Below are positions 1-60,701 of a stretch of DNA of 64,000 bases, in pieces (position 1 is the first letter of the stretch; every line of letters begins with the position of its first letter). The translations under genes and the position numbers were made by a program. The stretch comes from Thozetella sp. PMI_491 (taxonomy: Eukaryota > Ascomycota > Sordariomycetes > Chaetosphaeriales > Chaetosphaeriaceae). The notes beneath the pieces were generated by a model. It had not been told where the DNA came from. It was given only the letters and a program-made list of their open reading frames with translations, and did no database searches. The DNA is taken from positions 248,001-312,000 of the forward strand of contig MU270039.1 of assembly GCA_021432635.1 (NCBI GenBank), in the 5' to 3' direction.

Positions 1-445
1 ACTAGGTAGTAGGCGTTCGTGCGGCATGCGGGGAACTTCTTTGCTAAGGGCGACCTTTGCTGACGCTATCGGGCTAGCTGCATGTCCGTACCACGGAACT
101 CTATTTCTACCCGACGAAAATAGCCCTTTCTGGAATATAGTTGCTTACTTAACCGAAATGCATGAAACCTATAGTTATTGGGTCCTAGGAGAGGGGTTTA
201 CTGAATGTCGTCGTGCTGGCGCGTGGCAATGAAGGCACAGCGGCTGGCCGTCCTAATTACATGGTAATTCACCTACCCCTGACCACTCAAGTACCCCCAG
301 CTTGGATGGCTTATCCAATCCATTCCCGCACTAGATCCAAGAATAAGAGTAGCACTATATAGTAGAAAGTGTATCGCGGACATATTGATCTTTGCCGTTT
401 TATTTCTTGTCTATTATACCGATTTACTGTCCCGACCTAGACACT
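1..445 (+). other. Window edge, unassigned open frame
   Basis: One frame is open from base 2 to a TGA at 233-235. It could be the 3' end of a gene lying left of the window, or chance. I recognise no family in it. Bases 236-445 hold the probable promoter and leader of the SDR gene that starts at 446; I see no clear element in them. Confidence 0.15.
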
Positions 446-1933
446 ATGACGTCCAAGCACTTCCTGAAGCCTCCGGAGATGTTCTTGGGCCTGCCCGCCT
501 ATCCCCAGGGTCAGACTAAACACTCAGTCCTCATCGCGGGCGCCAATGGGATCACAGGTTCTCAACTGGTGGCTACATTGCGTGAAAGCCCCGACCGATG
601 GGATACCATTTATGCACTGAGCAGGAAGACGCCAGCTAATCCAATTGGAGGTAGTGTGAACTACTTGACGATTGATCTTCTAAGCTCCCCTGAAGAGATA
701 GCTGCCCAGCTCAGGGCGACCAAACCAATGTTTGTGATCACCGCTTGTGCCTCAGTAATATGAATGCAGAGTATAACTGACCGAGACAGTGATTTCGTTT
801 TCTTTGCAGCGTATATACAGCCGCCGCCGATGCCCGGAGAGGCTCTATGGTCGGACACCGCGGAGACGGAACGGGTCAATAGTGAGCTGATATACGCTCT
901 ATCTATCGCTTTCCTACAGTGCAGCTGACAATTTTCACAGTGCTCCTACTCTCAAACCTCTTGTCTGCACTGGTAATCAGCGAGAGGGTTCCAAAACGAT
1001 TCATCCTCCAGACCGGCGCTAAGCACTACGGAGTACATATCGGCCCGACGTTGTCGCCGATGGAGGAATCGGACCCTCGCTACTTGCGAAAAGCCAACTT
1101 TTACTTCCCCCAGGAAGACCTACTCTGGAAGTGGGCAGCAGAAAACCAAGTGTCGTGGAATGTAACACGCCCAGGATTTATCATTGGTGCCGTGCCTGAG
1201 ACAGCAATGAGCATAGCTCTTGGCTTGGCGCTCTACGCATCTGTACAGAAAGAGCTGGGCAAGCCACTTGAATTCTATGGCGACGGCGCTGCTTGGGCGA
1301 TCGACAAGCAGGTGACAAATGCTCACCTCATCTCCTATCACGCGGAGTGGCTCTTACTAACTCCTGGCACGGAAAATGAGATTCTTAATGTGGCAGATGG
1401 GGGGCAGTTTAGTTATGGAAAACTTTGGCCCATTCTTGCTGCCCTCTTCGGAGTGGACTACCAAGTTCCCGAGGAAGACAGCAAGGCATACCAAACCATA
1501 ACCATGCCAGAAGCCAACCCTCCGCGTGGCTTTGGGCCGGCGGGGGAGTTCAAAGTGAGAGCTACGTATGATGCCTGGAGTGTCCTGCCAGAAGTCAAGG
1601 AGAAATGGGCAGAGATCAAGTCAAAGTACGGCCTTCAGCACCGTACGGATCCATTTGAGAATCACCAAGATGTCTTCGGCCTGCTAGACGGCGAACTCCT
1701 AGGAAATTGGGGTCGAAGCATAAGGTAAGAGATGACCCACACCCGCACCTATAAGTCTCGTTCTCTAAGTTAACCGTGGATGAAGCATGAATAAGAATCG
1801 GAAGCTGGGTTGGCAGGGGTTTGTGGACTCGTATGATAGCTTTGTCGCAACATTCGAGAATCTTGCAAAACTCAAGATGATTCCTCCGATAGAACATACT
1901 AGTCCGTTGAGGGTCCAATATGTTGGATACTAG
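446..1933 (+). CDS. PRISE-like short-chain dehydrogenase/reductase
   Basis: An NAD(P)-dependent reductase of the PRISE group (progesterone 5-beta-reductase / iridoid-synthase-like SDRs), probably cytosolic; substrate unknown. Proposed exons are 446-729, 790-881, 941-1724 and 1786-1933, all GT-AG, and they give one uninterrupted protein. The N-terminal nucleotide-binding motif reads GANGITGS. Exon 2 supplies FVFFAAYIQ, the conserved strand before the active site. Exon 3 has TGAKHYG with the family lysine, then NFYFPQED and the RPGFIIG substrate-pocket strand. Related proteins usually have NFYY, so the second tyrosine is phenylalanine here, which may change catalysis. ATG 446 was chosen because the fold starts about 30 residues later; an upstream in-frame ATG at 392 is less likely. 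A dead MDR dehydrogenase follows on the same strand. Confidence 0.8.
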
Positions 1934-2089
1934 TGAGGCATGCTCTAAAAATTACGCTAATGTCACTATGTTCCAACGGCATCGCTTATGCTTGTGAATA
2001 GTAATCTATTTCTTTGACGATATTGCTGCTGATGATGGCCTCTTCCGATTTGATGAGTTGAGAGGCTATCCCGATACAACGTTCCAAAT

Positions 2090-2709
2090 CAAAGCGCCTA
2101 TCCCGGCTCCAAGATCAAGTAGTTTGGTTTTGCTAGAGCTACAATTCCAATTGAAAGAGGAGGCTCAAACTGTGGCAAGTTCGGCGCGCAACTCGCGCAG
2201 CTTGCTAGCATAGGCCACATCGTGGGGTTAGGCGGAAACGAAGAGGAGCTGCGGTGCTTTAGGGCCCGACCTGTGATTGATCGCCACGGTACCTTCGACT
2301 CAGTTCTTGGCCGCATTAGAGATGTAGTAGGAGACAATCTGATCTATGCCTACGATGCGATTAACCTGCCGGACAGCCTGATTCTTCAGCTGAATGCTCT
2401 ATCTAGCCATAAACGAGGCACCCTAGCGTGACTCCGAAGTGTTGGGACTGCTTACGAGTCTAAGGTAAAGAGGAAATGCCTTGTGTACGATATACAGGAT
2501 GTAGTGAGGACCTCATATGTTCATCCTGAGTTGGCCGCGGCGTTCTGGGCCCGGCTTCCTGGGTACATATCCCGTAACTGGAAAGATGACGCCTCTTCGA
2601 TATGTCATTAAGCAGTCATTAAGCACAAGCTAGATGCCGCGCGTGTTAATCAAGTATTCGGTGCTTATCTCGACGGCAATTCACTAGGTAAAACACACAT
2701 ACATCTGTA
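2090..2709 (+). pseudogene. Decayed zinc-type MDR dehydrogenase, 3' part
   Basis: Translation of three pieces recalls fungal zinc-binding alcohol dehydrogenase-like (MDR) proteins. Around 2150-2431 there is a nucleotide-binding segment (GGSNCGKFGAQLAQLA, then VGLGGNEEELRCF, VIDRHG and LSSHKRG). Around 2432-2560 there are weaker matches. At 2624-2709 there is the family C-terminus ending GKTHIHL and a stop. The pieces lie in order on one strand but in different frames, with in-frame stops at 2431 and near 2608. I see no convincing N-terminal GroES-like half. It is a host gene remnant, not a working enzyme. Confidence 0.65.
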
Positions 2710-3400
2710 AGGAGATAGGGGTAGGGATATCGTAGCTATCGGCGTATTCCTAAAAGAAGATTTAGCAGTTATGTCACTTAGATAGAGAGCAGCTATTGTG
2801 ATCAGCTATTTCATCTTCACTTGAGATTAAATGCCATAGCCCAACCGCTTTCCATTGCGCGTATAGAATATGTGTCCCAATACGAATTACTCAGATGAGC
2901 CGAATACTCTCCGTCGTCGGCGCGGGTTTCTCCCGAATTTACTTAGGCAACATTAAGACTTTTCACAGGACAGGTATATTAGAATTTGATGCCAGAGATG
3001 TCTGGGGTTTTGTTTTACCTTAGACTCGATTGAATAGAATTATCCTGAAGTAAAACCCCAAAGCACGGATTACGAGAAGAGATCCGTTTTATTGATAGCA
3101 ATCTATACATATCAAGACCTCTTTGTTACGAATTCAATGACTACATGAACTATGATATCGGTCTAATCGGTCTGATCGGCGCTAGATCGTTAATTGAATG
3201 TCTCGGCTAAACGTTTGCCGAGACAGTTTCGATCTGCAGTGGAAAATTAAATGTACCCAGGTCAGAAAATAACTTTAAGAACCATAACTTAACCTTAAGC
3301 ATGAGAGTAGATGCGGCTCAAGCTTGTAAAGTCTAGGAGCTAGAACCTATAAGGGAGGTGTTTTATTCTTTCACTTAGATCGAGACTCATAGCTTCATCA
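2710..3400. other. AT-rich gap without a recognised gene
   Basis: About 690 bases, AT-rich in its middle, with short frames only. It holds a near-inverted pair (TGGGGTTTT near 3003 and AAAACCCCA near 3053) and the palindrome listed separately at 3199-3225. Otherwise I see nothing in it. Confidence 0.4.
3199..3225. repeat. Perfect 9-bp-arm palindrome
   Basis: TGTCTCGGC and GCCGAGACA are exact reverse complements separated by nine bases. It lies about 200 bases before the first upstream ATG that could belong to the GGDEF gene. It could be a dimeric regulator site or a hairpin; the sequence alone does not decide. Confidence 0.5.
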
Positions 3401-3516
3401 ATGTCACCAATATACGCCCAAATACTGGTTTCCACTGCGAAAGCATATCGACTTATAAATGTGATAGCAGCTCTAAGGGAGGTAGAAAATAGAGGATGCA
3501 AACTTCTGAGGCTAAG
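3401..3516 (+). other. Candidate first coding exon of the GGDEF gene
   Basis: An ATG at 3401 opens a frame that is in phase with the GGDEF frame but meets TAA at 3560. A GT at 3517 (context AAG/GTATCA) and an AG ending at 3645 (context TTTCTCAG) would remove that stop in a 129-nt intron and join this stretch in phase to 3646-4804, giving 424 residues. This is a model from splice signals only; transcription is unknown. Confidence 0.3.
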
Positions 3517-3562
3517 GTATCAGTTCTTATTTGTTGATAAGCTATGGGTGCTAATGAGCTAA

Positions 3563-4804
3563 GAGACCGCGCGCCGGCGCATTCGCACTGGGGATGACCC
3601 TAACACTTTGGGGCTCCGACACAAAATTGCCCAAGAGTTTCTCAGAACGATATCTTCGAGATATACCAGTCCAAATTGCACCGAGAACATCGGGTCGCCA
3701 CGCCTAGGAGCTCCGTCCATAAATCAACCAAGGATTATTCCATTTCCGCTGGATAATATCTGTCCGACATGGCCACTGAGTTCCGTTGTTTCAGTTACAC
3801 GCGAGCAAAGTTTCACAGAGCGCTTGCATAAGGCTTGTCAGACCTTTGCCCCTGGTAGCACAGTAGACCAGGTGGCTGAATCGTTTATTATGGCCTCGCA
3901 ACAGATAATGGTGGCCCAGTATGCCTTGCTGTTTACTAACAGTGGCACTGACTTCCAAGTTACTGCGGCTCTGGAGGGAAAGATGTGGAAAAGCCATGTT
4001 GTAGCTGAGAATGGCGTGATAATGGCAACACGCAAGATAGTTGTTGAGATGGCAGCCGACAGCCCCAGGAGACTACGACTCAACCCATTCCGCATTGTCC
4101 CACTTACATGGCAGTCTTTCCCCATTGGTTACTGGGTGTTCAGCGGCCACTGTGTCACATCTCCCAGCGAGCACATGGTTGAGATAGCAACTGTACTAGC
4201 ATGTCAGGGTGAGGTCGCCATGTTTAACGCAATTTTGCTAGAACGACTGGAGTGCATCGCAAACACCGATCCTTTAACGGGACTTGCAAATCGGCGACAC
4301 CTTCACGATGCGCTTGATATTCACCTGAACAATGCAGTACAGAACGGAGAGCAAATCTCATTTATATTCATCGACATCGACCATTTTAAGGACATCAACG
4401 ACCGCCTCGGTCATCCAGTGGGCGATTCCGTATTGAAGCAGTTAGCAAGTATCTTGCAGCAGGCCGTCAGCAGTCAACATCCTGTAGCGCGGTACGGAGG
4501 CGAGGAATTCGCAGTCTTAATCGCAAGAGCGGATCGAAAACATGGGTGGGATGTTGCAGAGAGCATCCGAAAAGCTATTGCTGCTAACCTCTTTACCTAT
4601 GACGGAGGATGGCTCAAATGTACGGTTTCACTCGGAGTCGCATCATTCCCGGAAGATGCAGAAGAGAAGGCCCAACTCCTTGCATGCGCTGATCGGGCTC
4701 TTTACACTGCCAAGGGCGCAGGCCGAAACCGGACAGCAAGCTTATCATCTGCAGGGACGTGGCTCCTCTCGGATGACTCGACAGTGAAGCCCGAAATGGT
4801 ATAA
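3563..4804 (+). CDS. GAF-like + GGDEF diguanylate cyclase domain protein
   Basis: The C-terminal half is an unmistakable GGDEF domain, the bacterial fold that makes cyclic di-GMP from two GTP. In order it shows DPLTGLANRR (about 4268), FIDIDHFKDIN with the metal aspartates, LGHPVGD, the active-site GGEEF (4496-4510), SLGVASFP and ADRALYTAKGAGRNR. All key catalytic positions look intact. The inhibitory RxxD site before GGEEF is replaced by SSQH, so product inhibition is probably lost. About 140 residues before it look like a GAF sensor domain (about 3800-4255). The frame is open from 3563 but has no ATG until 3890, which would cut the GAF part, so an upstream exon (see 3401-3516) or a different start is needed. 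It has no obvious intron in the domain. Neighbours are ordinary fungal genes with introns, which argues for integration rather than contamination. Bacterial origin by transfer is inference. Confidence 0.8.
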   Translation, partial: ETARRRIRTGDDPNTLGLRHKIAQEFLRTISSRYTSPNCTENIGSPRLGAPSINQPRIIPFPLDNICPTWPLSSVVSVTREQSFTERLHKACQTFAPGSTVDQVAESFIMASQQIMVAQYALLFTNSGTDFQVTAALEGKMWKSHVVAENGVIMATRKIVVEMAADSPRRLRLNPFRIVPLTWQSFPIGYWVFSGHCVTSPSEHMVEIATVLACQGEVAMFNAILLERLECIANTDPLTGLANRRHLHDALDIHLNNAVQNGEQISFIFIDIDHFKDINDRLGHPVGDSVLKQLASILQQAVSSQHPVARYGGEEFAVLIARADRKHGWDVAESIRKAIAANLFTYDGGWLKCTVSLGVASFPEDAEEKAQLLACADRALYTAKGAGRNRTASLSSAGTWLLSDDSTVKPEMV

Positions 4805-5015: not shown

Positions 5016-5991
5016 TCACTTTCTCGCCTTCTTCCTTGGGCCCGAAGCTGCTGTCTTCCGAGGCTTCTCCTGGCTCTCCTCAGGCTCTTCTTCATCATCA
5101 GCCTTCCTCTTATTAGCCATCCGGGCCCTCTTGTCCTTACTGACTCCGTGCTCGAGAATGTCGAAAAACTCTTCCTCGCTGATCGTCTCCAGCTCGAGCT
5201 CATTGATGACCTGCAGCTTCTTCGGGCCAGCCCGCAGCCCCACGACAATGTAGTCGGTATCTTCCAGTTTGGTCACCACCTCAGCGCCGTACTTCTTGGC
5301 CGTGGCTAGAGACGTGACGCGGTCCATGGTCTCGAACGTGCCAGTGAACAAGATCTTGACGCCTTTCAGGCAGTTGGGGATGCCCGCCGGGATAGTCTTG
5401 CGGTAAGTAGCGGGGTTGACGGCCGTTTTAACCCCGGCTCCGGATTTCTTGCCTTTAGTCGCGACAGAGGATTTTGAAGGAGCCTTTTTCTTTGCTTGAG
5501 GACGCTCCGGCTCGTCGTTTTCGTCGTCCTCCTCCGCCTCCTCATCCTTATCGTCACCATCTTCATCCTCTTCTTCTTTGATGTTGTCCGGCCAGTTGCC
5601 TGGGCCATCCAAGGGCCGTTTGGCGGTCTTCCGGGTGCTACGCTGATTTAGATTGACCTTGTAGACACACATCTCCACCGCGCGATGCCCACCTGCACCC
5701 CCTTCTAGTGTACCTATTCCGGAGAGTTAGAGAAAAGATCTGACGGTTGAATCGGAATGGAAAACTCTCACCTCGGTAGAGGCCCTCATCGTCAAGGTTG
5801 TGAAGAAAATCGTACTCGTCACGGTCGCCGAATGGATTGAGCAAGTCGGCATAGCGGTTCATGAGTTTCTTAGCCGCCGCATTGGCAGCCGACTTAGTTA
5901 GGTAGACTTCAGGCTCCTGTACGCCTTCCTTTTTGTCATCGTCATCCCAGATGAAGGATGTGACCACATAGAGAGTGGTTGGCGTTGCCAT
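5016..5991 (-). CDS. BRCT-domain nuclear protein
   Basis: Two exons, 5991-5772 and 5704-5016, give 302 residues. The N-terminal 95 residues are a conserved fungal segment starting MATPTTLYVVTSFIWDDDD. Then comes a lysine-rich and strongly acidic linker with long Glu/Asp runs. A single BRCT domain follows at about residues 180-262 (GVKILFTGTF, AKKYGAEVV, DYIVVG, ISEEEFFDIL). The tail is rich in Lys and Arg and looks like a nuclear localisation signal. The BRCT resembles those of replication factor C large subunit and DNA ligases, so a role in DNA replication or repair is likely but the partner is unknown. An in-frame ATG at 6084 would add 31 residues; 5991 was preferred because homology-like sequence begins there. 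Confidence 0.8.
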
Positions 5992-6632
5992 CTTATCACT
6001 CGCTCGCGTCGGCCCAGTACGCTGATAACTCTCTGCCCGGTAGATTCTCGTTGACGATGGCGATATAAGTTCTTGGATGCGCAATAAATCAACCCTTCTC
6101 GCGCGTCAAGGACGTTGCAGATAAATACTGCAGCACAAATGTTTTGGCCTTGCGCGTGTTGTTGTGTTGTTGTAGGCTCTAATTTTCGCGTGCCAACGGC
6201 ACAGTCAGGCAACAGCCACCCCTGTCACCTGTAGTCCAAATTAGAATGTCACGTGCCGCCGTCTCCGTCCAAGACCACCACCCAAATGTATGAGTTACGA
6301 CGGTCTTGCCAAGATGACCCAAAAGTTTTATCATTTATTCCTATAAGAAAGAGAAAGGAAAAGATTCTATCCGGTATATTTTCTGTTCGAAGTGAGGTCC
6401 AGACTGAAAATTAGCTTTTATGGCGAGATGAACCGAGAGTGAGGAAGGGCTCAACAGGGGACTTGACAGCCCACCATAGGGTTGTTGGATAGAAACCATA
6501 AAGGCACCTTAGGTATTTTAAGGAAACCTGTCGTACACCGTAGCTTTCTTGCCGACCAAATGTTGCCACATAGTAAATGAATGTAGCACCAGGCCCAGTT
6601 CACCTGGGGCGTTTTTGTCCTAAATCGTCGCC
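5992..6632. other. Intergenic, BRCT gene promoter side
   Basis: This stretch separates the start of the BRCT gene from the stop codon of the membrane protein gene, both on the minus strand. Frames here are short and I recognise no gene, RNA or repeat. Confidence 0.4.
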
Positions 6633-47632: not shown

Positions 47633-49081
47633 TTAAAACCCATTGAGTGCCGGTTGCAGGATGGTCTGCACAACGACTCGCTTATAGGTCGTCATAGATG
47701 GGGTGCCATCATCTGAGACCTCCAGTATAAGATGCATGACTTGGCCTTCGGGCTTCGGCAAACCGGCAGAAGGATCCACGGCGCATTTTTCTGGAAGTAT
47801 CGCTCTCACATGCCTTCCTGGCTTTACTAAATCCAAATCCTCAAATTCAACTGGCTTTACCTCGTTGTCAATGATCCACTGCGTAGCCGTCACATCTTTG
47901 TAGTGAAACCACTTGAAGGAAAGTGCATCGCCATCAGGGTCGTACGAGTCGGATGCGTCCAAATCAATGGTGCTTCCGGCCTCCGCTTCGAGGAAGAGCG
48001 GCTCGGGTCCTACGGCACCATTGACAACGACGACAGGAGAGTGGTTAGCCGCAGAGATGTTTTCGTGGAGTGTCCACTGTATTCTCGCTGCAAAATCGGT
48101 TTGGAAAGCCTCTCTCCATCTCCAAATAGTCGCGTGATTGCTCCTGAACTCCAGGCCATTTTGGCCGACCACTCTGTCCACGGCATCGTGAAAGTGCCTG
48201 AATGCACTATCCCTTGAACTATCCACTGGTAGATACCGACCACCCCAGCTTCCCCAGTTTGGATGCTCTGGGGAGCCTAGTCCGTTCTGTATCAGGTAAA
48301 GGAAGGTTGGGGTATCACCTTCTGGGATGAACATGAAGTCGGGATACGCTTTGCCGAGGGGCCCGATTTGTATGTTCCGCCGAATCCACTCGCCAGAGAC
48401 CAGGTCAAAGTCAGGCCCGCCTTGGTCGAAACCGTAGAACTTGTCTCCCGAAATTCCAGTCCAGAGTGCGTTGCCGTATTGGTTCCAGCCGTGGATAGAC
48501 GTGATATAGAAGATGTCCGGGAAGCTATGCCGTATCCAGATGCCAGTGTCGTCCTGGTCCGAGATTGCGTAGACTCGCATCTTCGCACGGAGACGTCGGT
48601 GGTCTTCCGCTGCCATGCTCTCTGCAGTATGTCGCAAGGTCTGCGCAAGAACGTTGGTGCCTCCCCAGCAGAGGATCCACAGAGGCTCCTCAGATTCGGC
48701 GAGACGCTCGATCAACAGGTTTGCACCGTCACTGATGGCGACGTTATTATCCAGAGCTTCCTTTCCGTAGAGACAAGGTCCGGTTCTGAGCATGTCGAGG
48801 AAATACTGGCCGCTAGAGTACTGATTGTTCGCATGGACATGTTTGTTCAGATTCGGTACAACTTGATCGTATGCCTTGATGACCTTCTCCATGTCCTCCG
48901 GGTGCACCGCTCGTTTCATCCATGTTGACGTGCAAGCTACCAATCCTCTAGTGTCAAACTCGTTGGAATACAGGAGGTATCGAACTAAGGATTCAGCGTC
49001 GTCAGGCTCGTTGGAGATATCCGAGATGATGAAGACGCGCGGCTTGGTTGTACAAGCCCTCAGTCGAGACGGAGGTGCCAT
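47633..49081 (-). CDS. DUF1593 protein (Sde182-type, nucleoside-hydrolase-like)
   Basis: A single exon of 482 residues from ATG 49081. The N-terminal two thirds is a nucleoside-hydrolase-like domain: RVFIISDISNEPDDAESLVR carries the acidic, metal-binding type of motif. Later come WILCWGGTNVLAQTL, YAISDQDDTGIWIRH and PNWGSWGGRYLPV. The last third is an immunoglobulin-like domain with DLDASDSYDPDGD and a VSDDGTPSMTTY ending. Bacterial relatives include the cellulose-binding Sde182 protein, so a role with plant polysaccharide is plausible but its activity is not known. No signal peptide follows this ATG; an upstream exon could supply one. It lies between the sugar transporter and a Zn2Cys6 regulator on the same strand. 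Confidence 0.85.
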   Translation of the reverse strand: MAPPSRLRACTTKPRVFIISDISNEPDDAESLVRYLLYSNEFDTRGLVACTSTWMKRAVHPEDMEKVIKAYDQVVPNLNKHVHANNQYSSGQYFLDMLRTGPCLYGKEALDNNVAISDGANLLIERLAESEEPLWILCWGGTNVLAQTLRHTAESMAAEDHRRLRAKMRVYAISDQDDTGIWIRHSFPDIFYITSIHGWNQYGNALWTGISGDKFYGFDQGGPDFDLVSGEWIRRNIQIGPLGKAYPDFMFIPEGDTPTFLYLIQNGLGSPEHPNWGSWGGRYLPVDSSRDSAFRHFHDAVDRVVGQNGLEFRSNHATIWRWREAFQTDFAARIQWTLHENISAANHSPVVVVNGAVGPEPLFLEAEAGSTIDLDASDSYDPDGDALSFKWFHYKDVTATQWIIDNEVKPVEFEDLDLVKPGRHVRAILPEKCAVDPSAGLPKPEGQVMHLILEVSDDGTPSMTTYKRVVVQTILQPALNGF

Positions 49082-49888
49082 TGCTAACTGGCGTGATGAC
49101 GAGCGACGAGACTGGTCGTGAGGCACTGGCCGTCGCTTTGCTGGTCCGGTCTATTACTGAGGAGCTTCTTCTAGAAAGATCCGATGTTAATGCTGAGCTC
49201 CGACTGTTGACATGATGGCAAAGTTGGGGAGTTGTGTCGAGGCAGCCGTGTTGCCACGAAAATAGTACAATTTCATCAGTGCTTTCTTCACCGATGATGC
49301 GCTGTTGAAGCAAAAGGGTCCATAGAGCTAATTTTGACCAGCCGACCGAATCCATCTCTTCCCCCACACGGCACTCTGGACAGCTGTGGCTGGACGGGCA
49401 ATTCTAAGCGAGCGGCTACGACTACCAGCTCGAGCAGCCTTAATCTACCCTGTGCTTTCGATTGGTACCAGCAAATAGCGCGCCCTAATGAGTGAGTCAA
49501 TGTTCATAGTGTCGTGTTTTACTGGCCTTACGTTGTGGGGAAGGACGGGTTATTCTAGCGTCCGTATTCGGACTGCTGCAGGCCGACGCTAAGATTCACA
49601 GTCATGCGATGTTATTCCTAATCCAATCCTGTACTTTACGCAGTTAACGCTCGGCCATGGTCAACATCGATGTTTCAAGTGTTGCGGAAAGCGAGCTACC
49701 AACTCCTTTTATCCAGCCACACTATACCCGGGCAGTTGCCACTGTGACGCCAGTTCTCGATGTTGGCTAGCTTCTTAGACTGGTGAAGTACTTGTAGTAA
49801 CTTGATCGCTACAAGGTGTTCACCAAAAAACGGATTTTGTTCAGCAAGATATTATGTTTAAAACAGCTGGCTGCTGCTGTAGTGTGTC
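49082..49888. other. Intergenic, no recognised gene
   Basis: Lies upstream of the DUF1593 gene and after the stop of the regulator gene. Frames are short. A hidden first exon of the DUF1593 gene could be here, but I cannot point to one. Confidence 0.3.
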
Positions 49889-56817: not shown

Positions 56818-57267
56818 AGCTTCGCTGTGAGTTGCATACCTCGCTTAGCCTTAATTCACTTTAGACTAAAAGGATTAGATGCTTCTATGAAACGGCCACC
56901 GCCTAATGTTAGGGCTGGTGATCTTGTTAGTTAATGGACATCCGTCTTATTCACACTGCATCTTTTATACATTTCGTAAGGGTATCTATCTAGGTGGCTA
57001 TCATTAATAAATTCAACTGCTTTAATGCATATCGTCGTAAAGAGTATTGTGCACACCAATGTAGAAACTGCATATCACAGCTGAGGCAACCAGGGACCAC
57101 GTGATAGCACCGCCACCACCTCTTCATTGCGATGGTCAGGCTTCGTATCACTCCTCTCAAGGCTTCCAACCTCTCACCTTGCGCACCCAAGTTTCCAAAA
57201 ATTCGTATCCCATTTTACTAACTCCCTACTACCCAACCCTTGAGGCACCTGGCCTCCAACTAGCGCC
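56818..57267. other. Upstream region of the NLR gene
   Basis: No gene seen. AT-leaning sequence with short frames; presumably the promoter and leader of the HET-NLR gene. Confidence 0.3.
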
Positions 57268-60200
57268 ATGCGACTATTATCGGTCGACAGTAATGGCAAA
57301 CTCAGCCTTTCTGTGGACATGTCCGACAGCCAACTCCCTCCGTACGCTATCCTATCACATACTTGGGGAGCAGACGAGGTTCTGCTCCAAGATATAGCCG
57401 CCGGCAACGCCGAGAGCAAAGCAGGCTATCGTAAAATTCATTTCTGCGCGGAACAAGCGCGACGTGATGGCCTGGACTATTTCTGGGTCGACACCTGCTG
57501 CATCGATAAGACGAATAGTGCCGAGCTGTCCGAAGCTATTAATTCCATGTTCCGCTGGTACCGAAACTCTGTTAGATGCTACGTATACCTATCAGATGTC
57601 TCATCATCGACCAATCCACCATGCGATCTTGCCTGCCAGCCTTGGGAGGCTGGATTCCGCACCAGTAGGTGGTTTACCCGTGGCTGGACACTTCAGGAGC
57701 TCATTGCCCCGCCGAATGTACATTTCTTCTCAAGTGATGGCGTGGCTTTGGGAGACAAAGCTTCTCTACACCAACAACTCAACGAAATCACTACGATCCC
57801 CATTCTAGCGCTTCGCGGCGCTGCCATTGATCGCTTTGACATTAAGGAGCGCTTCAGGTGGGTAGAGGGCCGAGAGACGACCCGGGCGGAGGATTTAGCG
57901 TACTGTCTCCTAGGCATCTTCGACGTTTTTATCCCGCCTATATATGGTGAGGGTAAACTGAGCGCAATGCACCGACTGAAAAGGGAGATTGAGAACCCGC
58001 GCCCCAAAGCACACAACTTGCCAGCTTGTAAGTAACTTTGCGATGCGCTCAAAAGCACGCTAACCGAATGGTAGTCATTGTGCCGTATACCAGGAACCCG
58101 GGGTTCATTGGACGTTCTGACGTGCTCGGACAGCTACAAATTCGACTTAGCCATGGGCAAAACCAGGGAAGCATGGTACAGTCAAGGGTGTCACTGTATG
58201 GCCTTGGTGGAGTCGGGTACGGACTTGTTATCTACCCTCTGCCACATTTGCTAAGTCTAACCAGGAAAACGCAAATTGCGTTAGCCTACGCATATTGGCT
58301 GTACGATACACAACCTGATGTGTCAGTGTTCTGGGTCCATGCGAGTACCTCTGAGAGGTTTCGGCAGGCATACGCTTCTATCGCACAGGCATGCCAGATC
58401 CCTGGTCATGACAATCCCAAAACTGACGTGCTGGCGGCGGTGAAAAACTGGCTTGCGTACCAAAGTATTGGTCGATGGCTTATGGTTATTGACAATGCCG
58501 ACGACACCGAAGTCTTCTTTGACACAAGATCAAAGCCATTCGCTGCCAATTCATCTGGCCAGGAAAAGAAAGCGGCGTTCTATGTCCCCGAGTGTGCTCA
58601 CGGATCAATTCTCGTCACAACGAGGAACAAACAGACAGGATCGCGGCTAGCAAAGGGAGATCACCTTGTCGAAATCGAGAAAATGGACGAAAATGAGTCA
58701 TACGACCTCCTCCGGACCGTAATGGGGAACTGCAACCTTGACCCAGAAGATATAGCGAATGTTGTTTCGCGGTTGGAATATCTCCCTCTTGCTCTTATCC
58801 AAGCAGCATCATTTATGAGGGAGAACGAGATATCAATTTGCGAGTATCTCGACTATCTAAACAAGAACGACCAAAACCTCGTGGATTTGCTCAGCGAGGA
58901 CTTTGAGACGGTTGGCAGAGATTCAGAGACTCCCCACGCCATTGCGGAGACATGGATCGTCTCATTTGAACAGATCCAACGACAGCAAAACTTAGCTAGT
59001 GATCTTCTCTCATTTATGAGCCTATTGGATCGTCAGGCCATACCACGAGACTTCTTAACGTACTACGTCGAGAATTATAAGCACATACAGGCTGGAGGAG
59101 AAATGGAGCTTATCAAGGCACTCGGGGTTCTCAAGGCATTCTCCTTCATCACAGAGAATAAGGACTACAGCCTAGACATTCATCGTCTCGTTCAGTTCGT
59201 TACGCAAAAATGGCTGGTCCGGAATCACACAATTCGACAATTCGGAAGCCAGGCACTTTTGTCCGTTACGCATCATTACCCATACGGCACCTATGAGAAC
59301 TGGGCAGTTTGCAGCAAGTATCTTCCGCATGTGTACGCTGTATTAAAGATTAAGGAAATGCAGTCTAAGTATGACACACTAGCGAAGGCGACGCTCCTCC
59401 AAAAGATTGCGACCTTCTTCCATTACCAGGGTCAATGGATCAAGGCAGGCGAGTTACAAGCACAGGGAGATGGGCTACAAAGCGAAATATTGGGGCCGGA
59501 CCACCCCTATGCACTCGATAATATGGCTAACTTATCAACGGCATACAGCCGGCAAGGTCGGTCCGCAGAGGCGGAGCAACTAGGGCTGCAGGCACTAGAA
59601 GCTCAGAAAAGAGTGCTAGGGCCTGAGCATCCTCACACGCTNNNNNNNNNNNNNNNNNNNNNNNNNNNNNNNNNNNNNNNNNNNNNNNNNNNNNNNNNNN
59701 NNNNNNNNNNNNNNNNNNNNNNNNNNNNNNNNNNNNNNNNNNNNNNNNNNNNNNNNNNNNNNNNNNNNNNNNNNNNNNNNNNNNNNNNNNNNNNNNNNNN
59801 NNNNNNNNNNNNNNNNNNNNNNNNNNNNNNNNNNNNNNNNNNNNNNNNNNNNNNNNNNNNNNNNNNNNNNNNNNNNNNNNNNNNNNNNNNNNNNNNNNNN
59901 NNNNNNNNNNNNNNNNNNNNNNNNNNNNNNNNNNNNNNNNNNNNNNNNNNNNNNNNNNNNNNNNNNNNNNNNNNNNNNNNNNNNNNNNNNNNNNNNNNNN
60001 NNNNNNNNNNNNNNNNNNNNNNNNNNNNNNNNNNNNNNNNNNNNNNNNNNNNNNNNNNNNNNNNNNNNNNNNNNNNNNNNNNNNNNNNNNNNNNNNNNNN
60101 NNNNNNNNNNNNNNNNNNNNNNNNNNNNNNNNNNNNNNNNNNNNNNNNNNNNNNNNNNNNNNNNNNNNNNNNNNNNNNNNNNNNNNNNNNNNNNNNNNNN

Positions 60201-60701
60201 NNNNNNNNNNNNNNNNNNNNNNNNNNNNNNNNNNNNNNNNNNNNNNNNNNNNNNNNNNNNNNNNNNNNNNNNNNNNNNNNNNNNNNNNNNNNNNNNNNNN
60301 NNNNNNNNNNNNNNNNNNNNNNNNNNNNNNNNNNNNNNNNNNNNNNNNNNNNNNNNNNNNNNNNNNNNNNNNNNNNNNNNNNNNNNNNNNNNNNNNNNNN
60401 NNNNNNNNNNNNNNNNNNNNNNNNNNNNNNNNNNNNNNNNNNNNNNNNNNNNNNNNNNNNNNNNNNNNNNNNNNNNNNNNNNNNNNNNNNNNNNNNNNNN
60501 NNNNNNNNNNNNNNNNNNNNGTCGCTATACCAGCAACAAGATCGATTAGCAGAGGCAGAGCCACTAGGGCTACAGGTACTAGAAGCTCAGAAAAGAGTGC
60601 TAGGGCCAGAGCATCCTCACACGCTAGCCAGTAAGGCCAGGCTAGTGTGGTTATACAAGCTCCAGGGTAGGCTGTTGGAGGCAGCGGAGCTAGAGTTGTA
60701 A
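57268..60701 (+). CDS. HET-NB-ARC-TPR fungal NLR receptor
   Basis: Exons 57268-58027, 58075-58216 and 58265-60701. The N-terminal HET domain has YAILSHTWG, YFWVDTCCIDK and SRWFTRGWTLQELIAP. The NB-ARC ATPase follows with FIGRSDVL, the P-loop GLGGVGKTQIALAYA, Walker B RWLMVIDNADD, ILVTTRN and LPLALIQAASFM. The C-terminal part is a TPR array of 42-residue units containing LGLQALEAQKRVLGPEHPHT. Proteins of this layout act in cytosolic self/non-self recognition and cell death on fusion of unlike hyphae. A 48-nt intron (58217-58264) cuts the P-loop; it has no stop and keeps frame if retained. The array is interrupted by 879 N, so repeat number and about 293 residues are unknown. It ends in a degenerate repeat and TAA at 60699-60701. 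Confidence 0.9.
59642..60520. other. Assembly gap (879 N) inside the TPR array
   Basis: The bases on both sides belong to almost identical TPR units, so the gap is a collapsed or unresolved tandem repeat. Equivalent points on either side are 984 bases apart, which is not a multiple of the 126-bp unit (eight units would be 1008), so the N count is probably an estimate. Confidence 0.9.

Follow-up and report, generated by a model that had tools for sequence, protein, structure and literature searches.

Does the chromosome of a filamentous ascomycete carry a gene for a bacterial type of diguanylate cyclase, and if so, can the fungus make the enzyme? The question is raised by a single uninterrupted frame of 413 codons on the forward strand (3563 to 4801, with the TAA stop ending at 4804) in a 64,000-nucleotide stretch of contig MU270039.1 of Thozetella sp. 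PMI_491, hereafter the window, which an initial annotation had read as an integrated bacterial gene for a GGDEF protein with a GAF-like sensor. A 2023 paper calls Dictyostelium the sole eukaryote known to synthesise cyclic di-GMP (PMC10399225), and PMC4686194 presents its cyclase as the first putative enzyme of this type to be found in a eukaryote. The relevant passages of PMC3287990 and PMC4738358 concern bacterial domains. A literature search by title and abstract start found no report of a fungal diguanylate cyclase; print or protein databases may hold one. The features discussed below are collected in the table.

Table. Features at and around the GGDEF frame, in window coordinates
Feature	Position	Strand	Basis
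PRISE/epimerase-type gene for an NAD(P)-dependent reductase, left flank, two pieces	389..1728	+	PF22917 2.4e-15
Decayed, stop-rich stretch immediately 5′ of the GGDEF frame	~1790..2700	+	Six-frame reading
Whole open frame with GAF-GGDEF coding sequence	3563..4804	+	413 codons, stop TAA
Predicted GAF-fold sensor and long helix into the GGDEF domain, residues ~86-234	3818..4264	+	AlphaFold2, profile match
First in-frame ATG, residue 110, in the second GAF helix	3890..3892	+	Reading of the frame
GGDEF (diguanylate cyclase) domain, residues 233-390	4259..4732	+	Pfam, NCBIfam, pLDDT 95-98 per block
Position of the RxxD inhibitory (I) site; here S303-S-Q-H306, site absent	4469..4480	+	Alignment with relatives
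GGEEF motif, inside the GGDEF domain	4496-4510	+	
Gene with RFC1-like BRCT domain, right flank, converging, two pieces	5016..6105	-	PF00533 3.3e-5

The GGDEF domain was matched by Pfam PF00990 over model positions 1 to 161 of 161 (E 2.5e-46), a score that rules out a chance motif match, and by the general GGDEF model of NCBIfam, TIGR00254, at E 3.1e-50. All the motifs on which the initial annotation relied (DPLTGLANRR, FIDIDHFK, GGEEF, SLGVA and AKGAGRNR) lie in frame, and its reading of a complete GGDEF domain is borne out. Solved sequences (PDB) gave 57 matches at E 0.001, the top ones being GGDEF proteins, and seven PHROGs families matched, all of them of unknown function.

The sensor half was less readily recognised, and Pfam returned no GAF domain match on the window protein. 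An AlphaFold2 run on the whole frame with 41 bacterial relatives predicted helices at residues 80-94 and 101-116, five strands (118-195) and a helix at 203-234 leading into the GGDEF domain; the GGDEF block had the high pLDDT given in the table, and residues 30-79 and 149-172 were unreliable. In a profile built from the same 41 relatives, residues 71-232 alone scored 18.4 bits, whereas 1000 shuffles of those residues reached no more than 7.4 bits, with the alignment starting at residue 86 (about position 3818) and its envelope at residue 75; one bacterial locus, L111, aligns from residue 81. The top solved match in Foldseek was 4zmu (Dcsbis), which we take to be a GAF-GGDEF protein, at E 1.7e-18 over 350 alignment columns including gaps, with 24% identity and most of the chain covered. 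Its TM-score was low (0.38, on the model's length) and its rmsd high (13.9), in our reading because the two domains sit differently. Since the predicted fold, the Foldseek match and the profile score above shuffles all point the same way, the sensor appears to be a genuine, strongly diverged GAF domain, with a helix linking it to the GGDEF domain in the predicted GAF-GGDEF architecture; the sensor annotated ahead of the GGDEF domain is thus upheld, though Pfam is silent.

For residue-by-residue comparison, the 41 relatives had been chosen from 136 matching loci by score and by length across the sensor. In these relatives 29 columns are at least 95% conserved, and the window protein keeps 27 of them; the two lost are the R and the D of the RxxD product-inhibition site, where S303 and H306 stand. 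Both RxxD residues occur in 39 of the 41 relatives in the GAF-GGDEF alignment, and the site is present in 115 of 132 bacterial GGDEFs of a wider set in which close kin were counted separately. When each relative was left out in turn, those deviating at least as much as the window protein numbered 3 of 41 at the 95% columns, 2 of 41 at 90%, 15 of 41 at 80% and 9 of 41 at 70%. At the strictest columns, the window protein is therefore among the more deviant rows, at the 95% threshold wholly because the I-site is lost, and elsewhere it behaves like an ordinary bacterial member. Residues D271, D273, N279, G313, E315, F316 and K384 are each the commonest residue at their position (in 131 or 132 of the 132 bacterial GGDEFs) and, by analogy with PleD, presumably serve in metal or GTP binding. 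In the Hybrid (Hypr) GGDEFs that make cGAMP, a serine replaces the specificity aspartate; the window protein has D288 at that place, as 126 of the 132 bacterial relatives have D, and so lacks the Hypr mark. Judged by sequence, the catalytic residues are complete.

The surroundings of this frame are fungal in content. The left-flank reductase also matched PF01370 at 9.1e-4, under that model's cut-off. The decayed stretch that follows is, we presume, the relic of a fungal zinc-dependent dehydrogenase, a reading left unconfirmed by one 102-codon piece of it, which had no Pfam or PDB match; no match to 1729-3562 was found in plasmid records. The converging BRCT gene has replication factor C subunit 1 as its best PDB match (9.7e-15), and its second piece had no Pfam match and no relative in viral contigs; between the stops of the GGDEF and BRCT frames lie 211 bases. 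Elsewhere in the window, Pfam identified Fungal_trans, Zn_clus, HET, DUF3425, GH7 and GH3 genes, and four consensus introns of the usual fungal kind interrupt a gene at 9.5-10.5 kb. The flanks had been described as intron-bearing fungal genes, which is right as to fungal domains on both sides and introns at 9.5-10.5 kb, but not for the immediate 5′ neighbour, which is decayed. The window contains a single assembly gap, 879 N at 59642-60520, far from the GGDEF frame. Searches of the window for RNA families and tRNAs were empty, as was a Pfam scan of 20 window frames for other parts of a cyclic di-GMP pathway.

Two further loci in the window merit record. At 57244-60701 on the forward strand, a HET domain is followed by NB-ARC and TPR repeats, and the 879-N gap falls within the repeats. 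At 47636-49150 on the reverse strand, a complete protein with PF07632 and PF21027 (Sde182 nucleoside-hydrolase-like, named after a cellulose-binding protein) lies near GH3 and sugar-transporter genes.

In base composition the GGDEF frame resembles its host: of 304 overlapping stretches of equal size, 82%, 74% and 73% lie farther from the window mean than it does in 2-, 3- and 4-base make-up, respectively. Its codon usage fits less well. Against the window's fungal codon table it had the lowest fit of the frames compared (z 1.7, versus 2.7-9.5 in 18 frames), and its third-position GC was 0.51, versus 0.53-0.76 in the same 18. The table was built from those 18 frames with the GGDEF frame excluded, and it also includes codons of an 'SDR' row in the wrong frame (6 stops), a row that was dropped from the comparison. 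The region 5′ of the GGDEF frame, 2700-3560, departs strongly from the window mean, with a 4-base distance of 0.51, compared with an average distance of 0.29 and with 0.27 for the GGDEF frame; this region is shorter than the stretches behind that average, and its shortness inflates the 0.51. A search for an insertion signature turned up two short direct-repeat pairs and a single inverted repeat in the vicinity, but no repeat that flanks the gene. The direct-repeat pairs, of 19-20 bases, lie within 2769-3483, and the inverted repeat (3199-3225, upstream of the GGDEF frame) has 12-base arms, 92% complementary, around a 3-base loop.

Relatives of the protein are numerous in bacteria, and none of those recovered is close. 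A species-wide bacterial scan gave identities of up to 45% among the best 80 of 581 relatives (588 matching stretches), a selection beyond which nearer relatives may exist, and the best BLAST identity among the bacterial loci gathered was 47%. The highest score, 149.8 bits, belonged to locus L121 from an Actinomycetota genome. Matches at E 1e-36 or better were found in 7 of 299 genomes of Pseudomonadota, 23 of 201 of Chloroflexota and 37 of 246 of Actinomycetota; these rates are rough, since no more than 7, 10 and 8 candidates, respectively, were scored in each genome. Viral contigs gave two matches (38% and 42%). At the protein level, 4073 plasmid records and 79 phage records matched, none of either at 60% identity or more; at the DNA level, 14 plasmid records matched short pieces at 60-90% identity, none covering 80% of the query, and five rows among the matches listed cover 12% of it. 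The window protein (P0001) had N-terminal matches to Sinorhizobium plasmids from residue 18; in one such record, L083, a residue-by-residue reading made the match outside the GGDEF domain unconvincing, and it was set aside. A donor search with the sensor alone returned one weak match (E 2.8e-4) in 299 Pseudomonadota and none in 246 Actinomycetota, an empty result that says nothing. In a maximum-likelihood tree of 133 GGDEF domains whose bootstrap had not settled, no supported set includes the window protein; its end branch measures 0.8, compared with a median of 0.43, and the nearest rows by path, which are Actinomycetota, are unsupported. The gene is therefore bacterial in kind, with no close donor among the collections searched.

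These observations are best accommodated if a bacterial GAF-GGDEF cyclase gene passed into a chromosome of a filamentous ascomycete (of the Pezizomycotina, to judge from the neighbouring genes) and was retained there, a reading to which we assign a probability of about 0.62. Against it count the absence of an ATG before 3890, a best one-intron 5′ model no better than shuffled sequence, the poor codon fit, the decayed upstream stretch, the long and unplaced branch in the tree and the existence of short DNA matches in plasmids; its weak step is translation. A related account, which overlaps with it and which we regard as a plausible though not favoured alternative, holds that the gene belongs to an old fungal family, which an ancestor shared by several fungi acquired once and selection has maintained, with members perhaps already in databases but undiscussed. 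The lack of a close bacterial relative in the collections searched (among the matches listed), the host-like base make-up and the long end branch would all suit such an age; the start codon problem and the weak codon adaptation do not. Transfers of this kind have been counted in a strict survey of Pezizomycotina, which started from 246 candidates in 421 proteomes together with 275 published ones and kept eight interkingdom transfers, none annotated as GGDEF; seven of the eight came from the published candidates and one from the survey's proteomes (PMC11898892).

Whether the protein is made turns on the 5′ end of the frame. The start at 3563 given by the initial annotation is wrong: this codon directly follows a stop and is not a start codon, and the first in-frame ATG is at 3890, downstream of the point near residue 86 (about 3818) where homology begins. 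A product started at 3890 would contain the whole GGDEF domain, predicted at pLDDT 94-98, and would be without the first helix of the GAF fold and some of its second. Its first four blocks had pLDDT values of 69, 79, 73 and 49, against 88, 80, 78 and 62 for approximately the same residues in the full frame, a drop on truncation that seems modest, AlphaFold being no test of stability. We also scored models in which one intron joins an upstream ATG to the frame, using approximate scoring frequencies. The best model reached 2.5 with introns shorter than 300 bases and 6.0 with introns of up to 700 bases and ATGs from 1731 on; the four introns of the neighbour gene at 9.5-10.5 kb score 10.9-13.1. 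With shuffled upstream sequence the median best score was 7.4, above the 6.0 of the real sequence, and 75% of 60 shuffles did equally well or better. A one-intron spliced start upstream was rejected on this basis, and neither an ATG-started nor a one-intron-spliced frame spanning the whole GAF-GGDEF protein was found at the locus. The whole frame, taken as the gene in the initial annotation, is thus open for 413 codons, yet its first ATG comes at 3890 and no one-intron model supplies a convincing start further 5′, so the complete GAF-GGDEF protein may not be made. Translation may begin at 3890 with a cut sensor, the start may be of a kind not found here, or it may have been lost recently; the product from 3890, if made, may be an unregulated cyclase.

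The last of these possibilities leads to a different account, that the transferred gene, after perhaps working for some time, was recently silenced, its fungal start lost or never formed, and that the frame is open for lack of time and functionless today. This is possible but, in our view, somewhat doubtful. It would explain why the GAF domain has no ATG ahead of it and no convincing one-intron spliced start, and it fits the decayed stretch immediately upstream and the lowest codon fit among the frames compared. Set against these are the 27 of 29 near-invariant columns kept and the ATG at 3890, which could still yield a full GGDEF domain with predicted pLDDT of 94-98. Set against them too is the openness of the frame itself, since under neutral drift a frame this long would stay stop-free with a chance of about 5% at 7% divergence and of 1.1-1.5% at 10%. 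Beyond about 7% drift a neutral frame of this length would probably have acquired a stop; that this one is still stop-free means that it is still useful, was only lately released or lately arrived.

An assembly artefact or contamination, in which a bacterial fragment was joined into a fungal contig, is highly improbable. The frame is known from one genome only, the scaffold record does have a gap elsewhere (59642-60520), and 101 candidates without fungal homologues in the survey cited above were found to lie on bacterial-origin contigs (PMC11898892). Yet such an origin would need two joins close to fungal sequence and without a gap, with only 211 bases left before the BRCT-frame stop, and the base make-up of the frame is host-like. 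When open frames of at least 150 codons from 137 of the loci gathered were compared with the window by tblastn, no bacterial neighbour gene was found, the strong matches being to the GGDEF region. Beyond these, single matches fell on the SDR gene (60.5 bits) and on an enolase-like gene (35.4 bits), and 11 others ran antisense to the GGDEF region, the best of them scoring 53.9 bits. Recent bacterial contamination was rejected in view of the identity of at most 47% among the loci gathered, the host-like base make-up and the shortness of the plasmid DNA matches. With fungal flanks and no nearby gap in addition, the integrated bacterial gene first proposed for this locus is a better explanation than a chimeric join. 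Least probable of all is that a protein is made whose GGDEF domain is degenerate and binds cyclic di-GMP or GTP instead of making the former: many bacterial GGDEF domains are indeed non-catalytic receptors, but such receptors usually bind through the RxxD site, and here that site is absent and GGEEF is intact.

Returning to a transferred and retained cyclase gene, we can outline how its product would work if translated. Two copies would pair via the helix at 203-234, each GGDEF half-site would bind one GTP, and the paired halves would form cyclic di-GMP. Because the I-site is gone, the cyclase would probably be free of product inhibition, and the GAF domain would have gated its activity by binding a small ligand. 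As the full GAF domain has neither an ATG nor a convincing 5′ exon, the product today would be either a sensor-cut, possibly always-on cyclase starting at 3890 or, if the start was recently lost, nothing. That the fungus makes this captured, feedback-free cyclase as its own source of cyclic di-GMP, be it a second messenger or a signal secreted to neighbouring bacteria, we consider unlikely. Were it true, a second eukaryotic lineage would join the known makers of cyclic di-GMP, and fungi would have their first example. With the gene in a fungal chromosome and its catalytic site intact, whether fungi make cyclic di-GMP can be tested directly on a single protein and a single transcript, and the gene also matters for the debate on the rarity of transfer into Pezizomycotina.

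Among known systems, the eukaryotic counterpart is DgcA of Dictyostelium, likewise a gene for a prokaryote-type diguanylate cyclase in a eukaryote; as reported in PMC4686194 and PMC10399225, DgcA has a knockout phenotype and a cyclic di-GMP product, whereas the window cyclase is known from its sequence alone. Among the relatives recovered, Actinomycetota and Chloroflexota supply the highest scores to the window protein, with GAF-GGDEF proteins (L121, L107, L111 and others) of which L111 aligns across both GAF and GGDEF with 31% identity over residues 81-390; the window protein nevertheless shares at most 47% identity with the loci gathered and is not joined to this group in the tree. Compared with bacterial GAF-GGDEF cyclases such as Dcsbis of Pseudomonas aeruginosa (PDB 4zmu), it differs in lying in a fungal chromosome, in lacking RxxD, in having a sensor beyond the reach of Pfam and in having no ATG ahead of that sensor. 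Fungal cyclic di-GMP signalling is a hypothesis; the enzyme itself is of a known kind in a new host group, with Dcsbis as its best Foldseek match, a domain order that we take to be the same and the catalytic columns conserved.
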